A DNA stretch of 64,000 nt from Firmicutes bacterium HGW-Firmicutes-2 (GTDB taxonomy: Bacteria > Bacillota > Clostridia > Lachnospirales > Vallitaleaceae), in contig PGZV01000003.1 of assembly GCA_002841495.1 (NCBI GenBank), positions 186,001 through 250,000 of the forward strand, given 5' to 3'. The translations under genes were made by a program, and so were the position numbers. The notes beneath the pieces were generated by a model. The model did not search any database. It had not been told where the DNA came from and saw nothing but the letters and a program-made list of their open reading frames with translations. Positions 21,819 through 27,489 of the stretch are shown here, in pieces. The number at the start of each line of letters is the position of its first letter. The first letter of the stretch is position 1.

Positions 21819-22751
21819 TTAAATTTTACTTAGTTCATGTTTCCTTTTTGTCAGTATATGCCTACAGCTCTCGGCTTTTTTAAAAATATACATCTGCTCA
21901 TCTGCATCACGAATGAATGCATCTACTGTTTTATGCTTATTCTGGTCAAAGCTAACAATACCATAACTGAAATGAAGAATGTCATTTTTTTGATTTCCGA
22001 AAATGACTGGGTTGCTTATTAGGTTATGTGTGCTTTCTTTTATAACTTTTTCAGATTGGTTTAGTATCACGCATAAAAACTCATCACCACCCAAGCGTAT
22101 CAAATATGTTGATTTTGGCATATATTTATTGAGTTTTTTACTAAATTCTTGTAAAGTTTGGTCTCCAATAAAATGTCCATACGTGTCATTAACGTATTTG
22201 AATTTATCAATGTCAATATAAATAATTCTCACAGATTCAAATGTTTCAACATCTTTTTCCAGTTTTAGCAAGCCACTTCTTCGGTTATATGCATGTGTGA
22301 GTCCATCATAATCCGCCAAGTATTTAAGACTTTCTATATTGGCTTTCTCTTGTGTAATATCTCTAAGTAAGCCCACTAGATGCTTGTCATTTGTACTTGG
22401 ATGATAGCTTAACGTTCCTGAATATTGTAGCCACACAAGACTACCATCCTTTTTATAAACCCTTGATTGTAAATCAAACCGATCGATTTCACCCTCTATA
22501 ATACGTTTGACTTCCCTGATATTTTTCTTATAGTCGTCAGGATGAAACAGAGCACTTATTTTTTCTATGGTATTATACTCCTTAGGTTGTAGCCCTAGAC
22601 TTTTTCCAATTACCACGCTCTGCATTGCTTCACCAGTGTCAAGGTTAATGTCATAATAATCAAAGCCCGATTCCGCAATCGCTCTTCTATACTTACTAAT
22701 TTCATAAGATAATGCATCGATTTTCAGCTTGTAATATTCATCAGAATTCAC
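21819..22751 (-). CDS. PAS-GGDEF diguanylate cyclase under a LytTR-type promoter
   Basis: A cytoplasmic protein of about 310 residues. A PAS fold-3 domain spans about 25-135 (ALFHPDDYKK, YKKDGSLVWLQYSG, GLLRDITQEK), followed by GGDEF (IDIDKFKYVNDTYGH, RLGGDEFL). The GGDEF signature is intact, so it should make c-di-GMP. The position of the inhibitory RxxD site reads PKST, so product inhibition is probably absent. I prefer GTG 22751, which has GAAGGAG 9 bp upstream, to the TTG at 22772. A GGGGTAATTG direct repeat and a -10 box lie upstream, matching those before the AgrC-like kinase gene. Confidence 0.88.
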   Translation of the reverse strand: MNSDEYYKLKIDALSYEISKYRRAIAESGFDYYDINLDTGEAMQSVVIGKSLGLQPKEYNTIEKISALFHPDDYKKNIREVKRIIEGEIDRFDLQSRVYKKDGSLVWLQYSGTLSYHPSTNDKHLVGLLRDITQEKANIESLKYLADYDGLTHAYNRRSGLLKLEKDVETFESVRIIYIDIDKFKYVNDTYGHFIGDQTLQEFSKKLNKYMPKSTYLIRLGGDEFLCVILNQSEKVIKESTHNLISNPVIFGNQKNDILHFSYGIVSFDQNKHKTVDAFIRDADEQMYIFKKAESCRHILTKRKHELSKI

Positions 22752-22868: not shown

Positions 22869-22933
22869 ATTGTAATACAAAAAAATGGAGAAAACCGTTT
22901 TTGGGGTAATTGCCATGGTTTTAGGGGTAATTG
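22869..22933 (-). promoter_or_regulatory. LytTR-type direct repeats and promoter of the PAS-GGDEF gene
   Basis: GGGGTAATTG occurs at 22903-22912 and 22924-22933, a period of 21 bp. LytTR regulators such as AgrA bind 9-bp direct repeats with 12-bp spacers, which also gives 21 bp. Exactly 28 bp beyond the inner repeat lies TACAAT (22874-22869) as -10; the -35 region is poor, as expected of an activated promoter. The arrangement is the same as at 24337-24401. Confidence 0.8.
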
Positions 22934-22943
22934 CATATTTTTT

Positions 22944-22979
22944 AAAAAAGCAGCTGTCAAAAATGATCGACAGCTGCTT
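22944..22979 (-). terminator. Terminator after the AgrC-like kinase gene
   Basis: AAGCAGCTGTC (22948-22958) pairs with GACAGCTGCTT (22969-22979), followed on the minus strand by a T-run (22949-22944). It ends 10 bp before the LytTR repeats of the next gene. Confidence 0.88.
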
Positions 22980-23000
22980 AGATCTTATTTATAGATGATT

Positions 23001-24305
23001 TCATTTTCCATTAAGTACAATTTGTGTGATGAATTTACCGTCTAATACTGAGAAGCCCGCCGTACCGTCGTAACGTTCTGCAGTGTAAAGGATGCTTTTT
23101 GTACCTGTTCCACCGCCCTGTTTTTGAGTTACCGGTAGTTCGCCATCAAAGATGATACCTTTTTTACATGTATTTTCCACTTGTATACGCAAGCGGTTAT
23201 CAATAAATTTGACGGTTACGATGATTTCTCTATCGACATCCTTAGGTAGCCTTTGGCAACCTTCTAGCGCATTCTCTAAAGCATTTCCAAGAACACAAGT
23301 AAGGTCGACGTTATCGATCCCAATGTCTTTGGGCACGGTTACACGAAACGTCGTCTTAATCCCTTCCTTCTCTGCTTTACGAACGTATACATTAAATATG
23401 CTGTTGGCAATTGGGTTTGAACAAAAAGCGTTGGTATAGTGTTCATCTATTGCTGCATCAAAACTTTTCATATATGTTTTTAGTTGATGCGTCTCATCGT
23501 TTTTCAACATCTCAATAATAACTGCATTATGATGATGCATATCATGACGTTGCTGAAATACCAGAGCTGCTGTTATCTTCTGACGATCAAGTTCTGATTC
23601 CCACAACTTTTCTTGTTGTGCCATAAGAAGTTGTCGCTTTTCAAGTGCATATTTTTCAACAATGGTATTGGCTTGATTATAGAAGAGGTAATACACCGCC
23701 AGAAAAAACATGTAGGCTGTGCTAATAATGAATCTATACCAATTATCTTGGCCCCAATACCAATAGGGTTCCGGATAGTATAGCACAATAATTTGCATAA
23801 ATAAAAACATCAGTGGTACAAGCGTAGCAGCTCGCCATTCCCGATCAAGCGCCTCCACCAGCCTTCTAAAACGTGGTCGCACGTATGTATACAGCAGTGG
23901 TAGAATAACAATATATATGACCAATCGAATGATAATCCGTTGTATAACAAAAGCTGTCCCAACCGCATGTATTGCCAAAGTATCACTCATATAGCTAATC
24001 GACACATAAATATTAACAAAAGTTAAAAAGCTGAAAAGTGACACAAAAAAATCATCATCCGAGCATATCAAAAACCATGAAAGTTGGATGACTAAAATAA
24101 TCAGAATGGCATATCGATTTACAGAATCAATGCCTTGTGTATATAATTGATAACTTAAGAGACTTATCCCACAAATCATAACAAATAGCCCTGCTATAAT
24201 CCTCTTTTTCAGAGGTTCCCGAAAACGCATAACAGCAGATGACATGAGCGTAAAACCGATGACTGATTGCAAAAATGAGAAAAACACGGATATATTGTAT
24301 AACAT
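23001..24305 (-). CDS. AgrC/VirS-like sensor histidine kinase (HPK10, GHKL ATPase)
   Basis: A 434-residue kinase. Six or seven TM helices fill residues 1-210 with no large extracellular loop, as in peptide-sensing AgrC-type kinases. A coiled linker leads to the phosphorylation region QRHDMHHHN (His254 by homology to RHDxxNH), the N-box LGNALENALEGCQ and the G-box GGGTGTKS. Its partner is the LytTR regulator at 24409-25140, 103 bp upstream. Between the two genes lies a LytTR-type direct repeat with its own promoter, suggesting autoactivation. No agrD-like peptide gene or AgrB was found, so the ligand is unknown. Confidence 0.9.
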   Translation of the reverse strand: MLYNISVFFSFLQSVIGFTLMSSAVMRFREPLKKRIIAGLFVMICGISLLSYQLYTQGIDSVNRYAILIILVIQLSWFLICSDDDFFVSLFSFLTFVNIYVSISYMSDTLAIHAVGTAFVIQRIIIRLVIYIVILPLLYTYVRPRFRRLVEALDREWRAATLVPLMFLFMQIIVLYYPEPYWYWGQDNWYRFIISTAYMFFLAVYYLFYNQANTIVEKYALEKRQLLMAQQEKLWESELDRQKITAALVFQQRHDMHHHNAVIIEMLKNDETHQLKTYMKSFDAAIDEHYTNAFCSNPIANSIFNVYVRKAEKEGIKTTFRVTVPKDIGIDNVDLTCVLGNALENALEGCQRLPKDVDREIIVTVKFIDNRLRIQVENTCKKGIIFDGELPVTQKQGGGTGTKSILYTAERYDGTAGFSVLDGKFITQIVLNGK

Positions 24306-24336
24306 TTATGGACTCCTTGTATAACTTTATTCCATT

Positions 24337-24401
24337 ATCCTAGCACAAAACTGCTTGAAATAACTTTTTTGGGGTAATTGACATCATTTTAGGGGTAATT
24401 G
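24337..24401 (-). promoter_or_regulatory. LytTR-type direct repeats and promoter of the AgrC-like kinase gene
   Basis: GGGGTAATTG lies at 24371-24380 and 24392-24401, with 21-bp period. Counting from the inner repeat, 28 bp separate it from TAGGAT (24342-24337), a plausible -10. Flanking bases (TTTTTGGGG and TTTTAGGGG) match those of the copy at 22903-22933. The site lies between the regulator stop and the kinase start. Confidence 0.8.
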
Positions 24402-24408
24402 ACATGTT

Positions 24409-25140
24409 CTATTCCTCAGTGAACATTTGAAAACGTAAAAATGCCTCCTTGAGTTTTTGATAAGCACGGTAAGGATATGTTACATGTTCACCAGTATCAA
24501 AAGTTATGGTGTCTTTAGATATCTGGCGAATGTATTTGAGATTTAGGTTTATGGAAGCACCGCACCTAATGAAAAATTTATTCTGTGAAAGTAACTCAAA
24601 AAGTTCCGTTGCAGTCATGCGCACCTCCATCTTCTTTCCTTGGATGGTGTGAACAATCTGGTAGTTATTTCGCCCTGTTTCCGTAAATACAACATCTCGT
24701 ATAGCAAGGCGTGTCATACCCTCTAATGTCTTAATGTTAACAACAACGCGCCGATCTTTATTTGCACGTTCCATAACTCTATCAAGTGCACTAAAAATAG
24801 CCACCTCAGTATAGGGCTTAACAAGATACTGTGTAGCTTCTACTTCAAAAGCTTCAATAGCATGATCTCTTGAGGTGGTAATAAATATAAATTCCCCTTG
24901 ATCACCTAGCTGCCGTAATTCTCTTGCCACATCAGTGCCAAGCATTCCGTCCATGTAGATATCCAGGACCAGTATGTCAAACCCTCCGTTCTTTGATACA
25001 TAAGATAGCAGTTCTAAGGGGGCAGAAAAGGTATATATTGTTAGTTCATATTGAGAATGCTCTTGAATGTACTTTGTTATATAACTATGGGTGCGCTCAA
25101 GTTCTTGTAATTCATCGTCGCAGATAGCTAGTCTTATCAT
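24409..25140 (-). CDS. LytTR-family response regulator (AgrA/VirR type)
   Basis: A 243-residue regulator. The receiver domain (1-125) has the acidic pair DD at 8-9, phospho-acceptor Asp60 (LVLDIYMDG) and Lys107-like LVKPY. The LytTR DNA-binding domain (140-240) shows FTETGRNNYQIVHT, FFIRCGASINLNLKYIRQI and YPYRAYQKLKEAF. It is predicted to bind the two GGGGTAATTG direct-repeat sites at 22903-22933 and 24371-24401, activating its own kinase gene and a diguanylate cyclase gene. SD AAAGGTGG precedes the ATG. It closes a run of genes that starts with the serine hydrolase at 27341. Confidence 0.92.
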   Translation of the reverse strand: MIRLAICDDELQELERTHSYITKYIQEHSQYELTIYTFSAPLELLSYVSKNGGFDILVLDIYMDGMLGTDVARELRQLGDQGEFIFITTSRDHAIEAFEVEATQYLVKPYTEVAIFSALDRVMERANKDRRVVVNIKTLEGMTRLAIRDVVFTETGRNNYQIVHTIQGKKMEVRMTATELFELLSQNKFFIRCGASINLNLKYIRQISKDTITFDTGEHVTYPYRAYQKLKEAFLRFQMFTEE

Positions 25141-25150
25141 ATGTCCACCT

Positions 25151-25588
25151 TTATTTTGATACTTTTTCTTTCAATTTCCCTTTATATATCTTCAGCTTAC
25201 TTTGAGCTCTTAGAAACAGGATGTAATCTCCCAAATTTGCCACGAAAACAATAACCAGAACAATTCCTAGGATTGGTAAAAATTCACTTATATTGTTCAA
25301 CTCGCTTCTTATCGTAGCTAATGCAAATAGCATTATACAAGTCGTGACGATTAAGGCAATCATGTTATTAATCAAAAAGTAATTAAGAGGTTTTGCCAAG
25401 CTAATCGGGATTTTAGATGTTATCCATTCTGTAACAAAACCGATACTTAATCCCATCATTCCGCTGCTTAGGACTAACAGGATTCTATCAGATCCTGTTA
25501 GTTCGATATCATTAAACTGCAGGACGATGCCGATAAAGATACCTAAAAAAAATGATTTTATAATATTTTGAATGTGAATTTTCTCCAT
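25151..25588 (-). CDS. DUF3021 membrane protein paired with LytTR
   Basis: A membrane protein of about 145 residues with four predicted TM helices (near 11-26, 38-55, 72-94 and 103-124) and a basic cytoplasmic tail KLKIYKGKLKEKVSK. It matches the DUF3021 family, whose genes usually follow a small LytTR regulator. In such LytTR regulatory systems the membrane protein restrains the regulator. I choose the second ATG (25588), since AGGAGG is 6 bp before it and only 3 bp before the first. It ends 10 bp before the AgrA-like gene, so two different LytTR systems share one transcript. Confidence 0.85.
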   Translation of the reverse strand: MEKIHIQNIIKSFFLGIFIGIVLQFNDIELTGSDRILLVLSSGMMGLSIGFVTEWITSKIPISLAKPLNYFLINNMIALIVTTCIMLFALATIRSELNNISEFLPILGIVLVIVFVANLGDYILFLRAQSKLKIYKGKLKEKVSK

Positions 25589-25598
25589 CATGGCCCTC

Positions 25599-26135
25599 CT
25601 ACATTTTTAGTGTACTTCTAAGTCTTTTTGAATACATTTTTGACACTTCCAACTCAAGACCACTAACCATCCTAAGAATATATCTTGAATTGAACCACGG
25701 AATAATCTCTTTCACATGCATAAGATTAATCAACTGGGACTTATTTGCTCGAACAAATCCTCTCTCTATCCATAATGTTTCATAATACTGCAAAGTCTCT
25801 TTCATACTATATGTATGTGAGAGTGTATGTGCAACAATACAGTCAGAATTTGTTTCCAGGTATAGAATATCCTTCGGTTCAATTACAATGTATTTATTAT
25901 CGCTAAAGCCTGTCACAGTGTCTTTATGTATATTTTTCTGAATCCCTGAGACCAACAACTTCACCACATCCATATAATCAATGGCATCAAAAACAACACA
26001 GAGCTTATCGCTTGGTACCTCATGACCTCTTTCAACCAATATCAACTCATATTCTATATTATAATCAAGCTGATACTTGGATAGCTCGACTTTTAGTTTT
26101 TCACTGACTTTGCTAGAACACACCAATTGAATCAT
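25599..26135 (-). CDS. Stand-alone LytTR DNA-binding regulator
   Basis: A 178-residue protein without a receiver domain. Residues 1-75 are an uncharacterised alpha/beta region. The LytTR domain spans about 80-178 (FSDNKYIVIEPKDILYLETN, GFVRANKSQLINLMHVKEI, LEVSKMYSKRLRSTL). This layout, with a DUF3021 gene immediately downstream, is the usual LytTR regulatory system, in which activity is controlled by the membrane partner rather than by phosphorylation. SD GGAG lies 5 bp before the ATG. Its targets are not evident; the inverted repeat upstream of the operon at 27366-27423 is not of LytTR type. Confidence 0.88.
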   Translation of the reverse strand: MIQLVCSSKVSEKLKVELSKYQLDYNIEYELILVERGHEVPSDKLCVVFDAIDYMDVVKLLVSGIQKNIHKDTVTGFSDNKYIVIEPKDILYLETNSDCIVAHTLSHTYSMKETLQYYETLWIERGFVRANKSQLINLMHVKEIIPWFNSRYILRMVSGLELEVSKMYSKRLRSTLKM

Positions 26136-26159
26136 TATTTCTCCTAAAATAGCAGTCTC

Positions 26160-27341
26160 TTATTCGATTATCATTCTGTCATAAATCATTCTGATTTTGA
26201 TGAGTTCCTCAATACTTTTTTCCATAAACTCAAGGGAGCCGTAATTGGCAATGAAGTAAGTGTCATTATTTTGATCATAAAACATATAGACACCTGTAGA
26301 CCCCATCCCACCATACACTTCCGACATTGAACCTAACAAAAAGGATAACTCACTAAAATCAAAAAGCATCATGCCCATTCCGTAATAAATACCCTTATCA
26401 TATTTCTCATTAAAGTCCTTCATCTGATTATACACTTCGTCTGACAAAAAATCGCCGCTTTCCATAGCCATCATAAATGTCAATAAGTCATCCATAGTTG
26501 TTACAATACCACCACCGGACCAATCCAGCGACAATGCATTTTTATTTTTATAATCAACGCCATCAATATAAATTCCAAGTATATCCGTCTGTACATCCTG
26601 ATAAAACATTAGATAACTATCATCCATACCCAAAGGTTCAAATATTCTTACTTCGAGAATCTCAGAATACGTCATTTGCTCAATCTCTTCAAGAATAAGA
26701 CCCAATAAAATATATCCAGTATCCGAATAATGAAATTGCTCACCCGGTATGCCTACAGGTTTTTGATAGTCTCTTGTGAAAGCAATCAAGTCTTGTGGCG
26801 TAAACACATGATCCGGATTCTCTTTAATGAATTCAAACATTGTTTTACCGTTTGCAACAGGGTCTAGAAAGAAATCTCCAACGCCCGATGTATGGCGAAG
26901 CAACTGCTCAATCGTCACTTGATTACGATAATCTTTGCCATCAATAACAAAAAGCCCTTCAAGACTTTCATCACCAAGCCAATGACTAATCTTATCATCA
27001 AAGCGGATTTTTCCCTCTTCGACTAATAAACCAAATACTGTGGCGCACATCGTTTTACCAACACTTGCAGAATGAAATTGACTATTTTTATAAACAGGTT
27101 GTTCTGAAAACATATCCATCGTACCAACAGCAAACTGACCTAAGTAATCCGTTTCATTTGAGTATATTGTTAGTAAGATACTGGATAATGAATCGTTTTT
27201 ATCCAGTACCTTTCTCAGATGCTTATTAATTTCATCATGAGTGACCTCTCTTGATATCGGCCTATTCAGATAAACTATAACGCTAAAGCTAATCATTATC
27301 AAACTTATAATGCCTAATAATATTTTATATCGTAATTTCAT
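26160..27341 (-). CDS. Membrane-anchored serine hydrolase (class C beta-lactamase-like)
   Basis: A 393-residue protein. One TM helix (about 5-25) anchors an extracytoplasmic PF00144 domain. The SxxK motif is SVGK (near 96-99). The YxN motif is altered to YSD (YSDTGYILLG), and the third motif reads GGMGSTG, with no clear HTG. Such proteins are carboxypeptidases, esterases or peptidases; the altered motifs argue against true beta-lactamase activity. It starts an apparent operon with the LytTR, DUF3021 and AgrA-like genes (gaps of 24, 10 and 10 bp). It could act on a wall fragment or signal sensed by these systems; that is inference only. Confidence 0.85.
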   Translation of the reverse strand: MKLRYKILLGIISLIMISFSVIVYLNRPISREVTHDEINKHLRKVLDKNDSLSSILLTIYSNETDYLGQFAVGTMDMFSEQPVYKNSQFHSASVGKTMCATVFGLLVEEGKIRFDDKISHWLGDESLEGLFVIDGKDYRNQVTIEQLLRHTSGVGDFFLDPVANGKTMFEFIKENPDHVFTPQDLIAFTRDYQKPVGIPGEQFHYSDTGYILLGLILEEIEQMTYSEILEVRIFEPLGMDDSYLMFYQDVQTDILGIYIDGVDYKNKNALSLDWSGGGIVTTMDDLLTFMMAMESGDFLSDEVYNQMKDFNEKYDKGIYYGMGMMLFDFSELSFLLGSMSEVYGGMGSTGVYMFYDQNNDTYFIANYGSLEFMEKSIEELIKIRMIYDRMIIE

Positions 27342-27365
27342 TTTTGACCACCTTCCTAATTCTTA

Positions 27366-27423
27366 TTAACGGATAAATACATTCTACTTCAGATTATAAA
27401 ATGTATATAGGTTTGTCCGTTAA
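27366..27423 (-). promoter_or_regulatory. Inverted repeat around the serine hydrolase-LytTR operon promoter
   Basis: TTAACGGA (27366-27373) and TCCGTTAA (27416-27423) form perfect 8-bp arms 42 bp apart. On the minus strand a TATAAT box lies between them, 25-50 bp upstream of the serine hydrolase gene. The arms could be half-sites for a repressor that loops across the promoter. Confidence 0.5.
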
Positions 27424-27489
27424 GTGGTCAAAATTGAAGCTTAAGATGTCATTTTTATAGGATTAAGCATCCCTTGACTCTATCCTGCA

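Follow-up and report, generated by a model that had tools for sequence, protein, structure and literature searches.

The genome of Firmicutes bacterium HGW-Firmicutes-2 carries two promoters of the same design, one before a gene for a membrane sensor kinase and one before a gene for a putative diguanylate cyclase, which raises the question of which protein reads them and what is switched on together with the sensor. In the stretch of DNA analysed (64,000 nucleotides, hereafter the window), GGGGTAATTG-N11-GGGGTAATTG occurs in two perfect copies, against 0.01 expected in shuffles at up to 3 mismatches; because the kinase, regulator and PAS-GGDEF genes are all encoded by the minus strand, the motif is read as CAATTACCCC-N11-CAATTACCCC. 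Operator 1 (CAATTACCCC TAAAATGATGT CAATTACCCC; 24371-24401, minus strand) begins 7 bp past the stop codon of the regulator gene and faces the -10 box of the kinase promoter, TAGGAT (24337-24342), in an extended form (TGC-TAGGAT). Operator 2 (CAATTACCCC TAAAACCATGG CAATTACCCC; 22903-22933, minus strand), likewise a perfect direct repeat, faces the -10 box of the cyclase promoter, TACAAT (22869-22874). The initial annotation had described two repeat pairs of 21-bp period with the inner repeat 28 bp from TAGGAT or TACAAT, and this was borne out on both counts, both pairs being perfect and the distance exactly 28 bp each time. The promoters have extended -10s without a good -35. A strong terminator-like hairpin followed by a T run (22948-22979, minus strand; 22979-22948 folds at -21.5 kcal/mol, z -6.44) divides the kinase gene from operator 2, and the cyclase gene therefore probably has its own promoter. 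A consensus promoter and terminator scan reported neither the twin promoters nor this terminator, since the -35s are poor and the hairpin falls outside the criteria of the scan.

A candidate reader is encoded next to operator 1. The 243-aa product of 24409-25140 (minus strand) has a receiver (Pfam Response_reg, 3.9e-14) followed by a LytTR domain (37.3 bits against a cut-off of 22.6), the domain order of LytTR (AgrA/AlgR/LytR) response regulators, and Pfam together with motif association makes it the predicted binder of the repeats. Its residues 132-223, in the LytTR part, gave a profile match to the solved chain 3d6w_A; a fold search with the whole regulator model returned receiver domains only and was uninformative on the LytTR part. 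The kinase (23001-24305, minus strand, 434 aa) is a membrane sensor histidine kinase of AgrC-like (HPK10/GHKL) architecture (HATPase_c_5, 3e-14), in which the RHDMHHH box and GGGTG are conserved across an alignment of 16 orthologues. Behind operator 2 lies a gene for a PAS_3-GGDEF protein (21819-22751, minus strand; GGDEF 6.1e-31, PAS_3 3.5e-8), for which GTG 22751, preceded by AAGGAG, is a more probable start than TTG 22772. Its LGGDEF motif is an intact GG(D/E)EF site, from which diguanylate cyclase activity is predicted, and the protein lacks an RxxD inhibitory site.

The initial annotation had called kinase and regulator an AgrC/AgrA-like pair, which holds at the level of domains. A stronger version, for which the GHKL/HPK10 build of the kinase and the AgrA build of the regulator speak, would make the locus a complete Agr quorum-sensing system with a cyclic peptide as its signal. 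Shared with AgrC/AgrA of staphylococci or the agr system of C. difficile are a GHKL kinase, a LytTR regulator and paired direct repeats upstream of a promoter. However, the locus has no AgrB or AgrD beside the kinase/regulator pair, the two AgrB genes of the genome are found close to other LytTR genes, the assembly of a congener contains the system but no AgrB, and the regulator reaches only 42 bits against the AgrA equivalog NF046049, whose cut-off is 400. The gene order differs as well, with the regulator before the kinase and an internal promoter that would drive the kinase, and the operator core is CAATTACCCC. We consider a peptide-responsive Agr system highly improbable here. The AgrB genes themselves (G000:C4:2112-2642 and G000:C7:140904-141413), near other LytTR regulators, belong to separate Agr-type systems of the same genome.

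A reference-genome scan placed regulator orthologues in some 15 other assemblies of scattered clostridial genomes, including Natronincola, Anaerotignum, Sedimentibacter, Fusibacter, [Clostridium] viride and Sporanaerobium. LytTR response regulators are characterised by binding to paired direct repeats of about 9 bp, spaced by 10-13 bp and upstream of the -35 region, and repeats of this kind are present at every orthologous regulator-kinase locus with sufficient flank. The common arrangement is regulator, site, kinase, site, cargo: in most members of the main clade operator 1 stands 5-10 bp past the stop codon of the regulator gene, a position kept in L053-L064, and operator 2 lies behind the kinase gene. 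A TANNNT box is found exactly 28 bp from the repeat in 25 of the 27 sites of 21-bp period (the next best offset accounts for 8 of 27), TG one base upstream, as in an extended -10, in about 85% of sites, and the A-tract of the spacer is nearly invariant. A divergent clade, composed of C. viride, Sporanaerobium and one MAG, has regulators of 43-48% identity and carries CATTTACGCC-N10/11-CAATTACGCC behind the kinase, likewise 28 bp from TATAAT; the divergent regulators thus have an altered motif, so that motif and LytTR domain change together. No such site was found beside about 50 paralogue loci (35% identity or less), apart from one weak chance match elsewhere in L074. Among 391 genomes sampled from the class, only that of the window has the motif at up to 1 mismatch and the 390 others lack it, and an exact copy occurs in just one other genome among 196 of the order, a MAG about 80% complete (G027). 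At this orphan site (L157:8244-8274), a TATAAT follows at 29 bp and then a reading frame with a signal peptide, broken by an early stop, and an SLH gene lies just upstream; a close regulator orthologue was not found in this incomplete assembly. No phage or viral contig with the exact motif was found, nor any plasmid-borne regulator orthologue above 31% identity. The one constant companion of the motif is the response regulator, and the motif is almost exclusive to its orthologues.

A second LytTR protein is encoded nearby, in an LRS-like operon (window 25151-27449, minus strand) for a beta-lactamase-fold protein, a single-domain LytTR protein fitting the LRS pattern (25599-26135; LytTR 75.6 bits) and a small membrane protein without a family match, in the position of an LRS inhibitor (25151-25591). 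Upstream of the operon (27341-25151) stands a typical LRS repeat, ACATCTTAA-N12-ACCACTTAA (27420-27449; cf. PMC6193735). The operon ends 10 bp before the regulator gene, with which it may be co-transcribed. In a congener, the small membrane-protein gene is reduced to its final ~100 bp in front of the regulator gene (L014:2270-2380, corresponding to window 25151-25260), and the LRS operon was therefore lost, or gained, at this junction.

Could this LRS-type protein bind the twin operators, leaving the response regulator to other targets? Its good LytTR domain and the place of its gene, directly upstream of the regulator gene and possibly on the same transcript, would allow it. Yet a counterpart is absent beside the orthologous motif-carrying systems, its operon has a repeat of its own of the ACCACTTAA type, a class published for LRS (PMC6193735), and the motif covaries with the LytTR domain of the response regulator. 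We judge this assignment very unlikely and rejected the neighbour as binder of the twin repeats. Nor does the response regulator itself belong to the LRS class, with which (as HdrRM/BrsRM) its system would share a LytTR activator and positive feedback through direct repeats: the regulators of that class have no receiver, are paired with a membrane inhibitor and use ACCxxTTAx repeats (ACCACTTAC-type, mostly with 12-bp gaps and about 10 bp from the -35; PMC6193735), whereas 24409-25140 has a receiver and other repeats. The likely binder of the twin repeats is thus the response regulator, because its orthologues share the operator, paralogues are without it and the adjacent LytTR operon has a different repeat.

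The same operator occurs once more in the genome. A genome-wide motif search, which the initial annotation had proposed as a check, returned just three sites in 3.52 Mb, all perfect and all with TANNNT at 28 bp, at a threshold of up to 3 mismatches beyond which more divergent sites could be missed. The third site lies on a contig other than that of the window (C5:17870-17900), with a degenerate copy of the kinase gene on one side and the gene for a 1560-aa surface protein on the other. The kinase copy, downstream of tyrS, has 67% DNA identity to the window kinase and a longest open frame of 184 aa; the operator is intact despite this decay. The 1560-aa protein has three SLH repeats (1.2e-28), InlB-like repeats and a YDG domain, and its N-terminus, read by eye, resembles a signal peptide, the combination of signal peptide and SLH repeats that marks an S-layer-anchored surface protein. 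A second copy of the regulator was not found in the genome, where the next match is 26% identical, so that the C5 promoter must be served in trans, presumably by the regulator of the window.

Taken together, we find it quite probable that the twin repeats serve a single two-component system as operators, through which it activates the sensor gene and a variable output slot. As the layout suggests, the membrane kinase (23001-24305) would sense a signal and phosphorylate the LytTR regulator (24409-25140), a dimer of which would bind CAATTACCCC-N11-CAATTACCCC cooperatively at about -71 to -41 and recruit RNA polymerase to the extended -10 promoter that has no good -35. Operator 1, just behind the regulator gene, would raise kinase expression, a positive feedback on the sensor only. 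Operator 2 would drive the output gene, here the PAS-GGDEF diguanylate cyclase and, across the family, usually a giant SLH-anchored surface protein, and the SLH protein on contig C5 would be induced in trans through the third perfect operator. Joint induction of sensor, c-di-GMP synthesis and surface adhesin could then favour a switch towards attachment. The sign of control might be the reverse, the regulator repressing from these sites or the sites merely silencing until a signal comes, as some LytTR proteins do repress, for example CoxC, whose operator overlaps the -35 box (PMC11347149). Here, however, the -35 region is left clear by the inner repeat, which ends upstream of it, and the extended -10s are not accompanied by a good -35, as in the layout of activated LytTR promoters. 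Repression is accordingly an improbable reading of the sites.

The output slot of relatives departs from the initial annotation, which had proposed that a LytTR circuit activates the kinase gene and c-di-GMP synthesis together. The promoter-operator look of the sites and the tracking of the regulator across species agree with that proposal, the layout for kinase autoregulation is conserved, and diguanylate cyclase genes are tied to the system in the subclade of the window. As the general output, c-di-GMP did not stand: the cargo kept most widely behind the second promoter is a giant SLH or surface protein, and the c-di-GMP link is lineage-specific. Such proteins are found behind operator 2 or extra operators in most genomes, with unrelated repeat types (BspA-LRR, InlB-like, beta-helix), and a search around the genes for these proteins gave no c-di-GMP riboswitch. 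In two Anaerotignum genomes the slot is filled by a gene for a 1009-aa MFS-domain protein, then condensation-like and AMP-ligase-like genes (L058:10404-16731 and L056:4089-10362), possibly a small lipopeptide pathway under the two-component system.

GGDEF genes stand behind operator 2 in the window and in Natronincola, where the gene is a different one; in L054 a dCache-GGEEF gene lies within the kinase unit, before operator 2 and the SLH gene of that operator. In the regulator and kinase tree these three loci and that of HGW-Firmicutes-3, all DGC-linked, group together (81/96). With flanks of up to 8 kb on each side, less on short contigs, a same-strand GGDEF gene within about 4 kb was found at 4/4 loci of this subclade and 0/11 others. 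Common to the cyclases of these loci are only the GGDEF part and a short stretch preceding it. The congener has an orthologue of the window cyclase (75% identity) upstream of the system and without an operator, and its operator 2 is missing; two tandem GGDEF genes, one of them this orthologue, lie directly upstream of its regulator gene (L046:7101-9534). The direct link to the cyclase thus arose, or was retained, in the lineage of the window, and c-di-GMP output is, by this comparison of loci, a predicted lineage-specific addition to the system. Operator 2 of the window may be a relic of a lost surface-protein gene behind which the cyclase landed, without meaningful control by the system, a view in keeping with the SLH and surface proteins in the slot of most relatives and with the operator-less cyclase of the congener. 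Against it, operator 2 retains 20/20 repeat bases as well as a good -10, whereas it is gone from the congener, which does not use the slot; moreover, operator 2 of Natronincola is followed by a GGDEF gene of another kind, and the kinase transcription unit of a third genome also includes a GGDEF gene. A relic is therefore unlikely, and we favour operator 2 as a working promoter element of the cyclase gene.

How the same operator may come to stand before such different genes is suggested by the remnants around it. In G201, a third operator is preceded by a kinase tail, the 375 bp of tail and promoter being 89% identical to the intact locus, and stands before a second SLH gene. The segment L158:10744-11072 holds an 84-aa C-terminal kinase fragment, of 89% DNA identity to the intact kinase tail, and an operator before the gene for a 1783-aa SLH protein, beside a gene for a subtilisin-like protease. 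Kinase remnants precede the operators both in G201 and on C5, which suggests that kinase tail, terminator and operator travel as a promoter cassette. Tentatively, such a cassette could be portable, copied before different surface-protein genes, its slot refilled with unrelated cargo such as SLH-LRR and SLH-InlB-like proteins, diguanylate cyclases and the MFS/ligase cluster; we put this forward as a possibility that is rather less likely than likely to be right.

Parts of this circuit have precedents. LytTR regulators, GHKL kinases and paired repeats are already known, and the remark of the initial annotation that it knew of no description of such a circuit does not hold for LytTR control of c-di-GMP enzymes: mucR of P. 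aeruginosa is stimulated by AlgR (PMC5812489, citing Kong et al. 2015), and inactivation of agrA in C. difficile changes transcripts for GGDEF/EAL proteins (PMC3754575). Since AlgR-MucR already provides such a link, LytTR control of a cyclase is itself not new. Among the closest known systems is AlgZ(FimS)/AlgR of Pseudomonas aeruginosa, whose LytTR regulator raises expression of the diguanylate cyclase MucR and also governs surface functions (PMC5812489). That system differs in being proteobacterial, with another operator and regulon, and is without the repeated promoter cassette, the sensor-only feedback layout or SLH cargo. In the literature searched, which covered few subscription journals, there appears to be no description of the operator sequence, the layout, the SLH regulon or the repeated use of the promoter cassette; there, the motif string gave only matches that looked unrelated, such as primers, and no papers linking LytTR with S-layer homology proteins were found.

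To conclude, we present here a new and exact operator code, a motif of 21-bp period set 28 bp from an extended -10, that belongs to a LytTR two-component family of scattered Clostridia, apparently not described before. From sequence alone this code yields a predicted regulon that links the sensor with giant S-layer adhesins and, repeatedly within one subclade, with c-di-GMP synthesis, a prediction open to direct test in cultured type strains from the environment. The system also provides an example of one promoter element reused with changing cargo. If the cassette reading is true, the 3' ends of kinase genes would serve as recombination arms, and adhesins or second-messenger output would be exchanged over evolutionary time under a single conserved sensor system.
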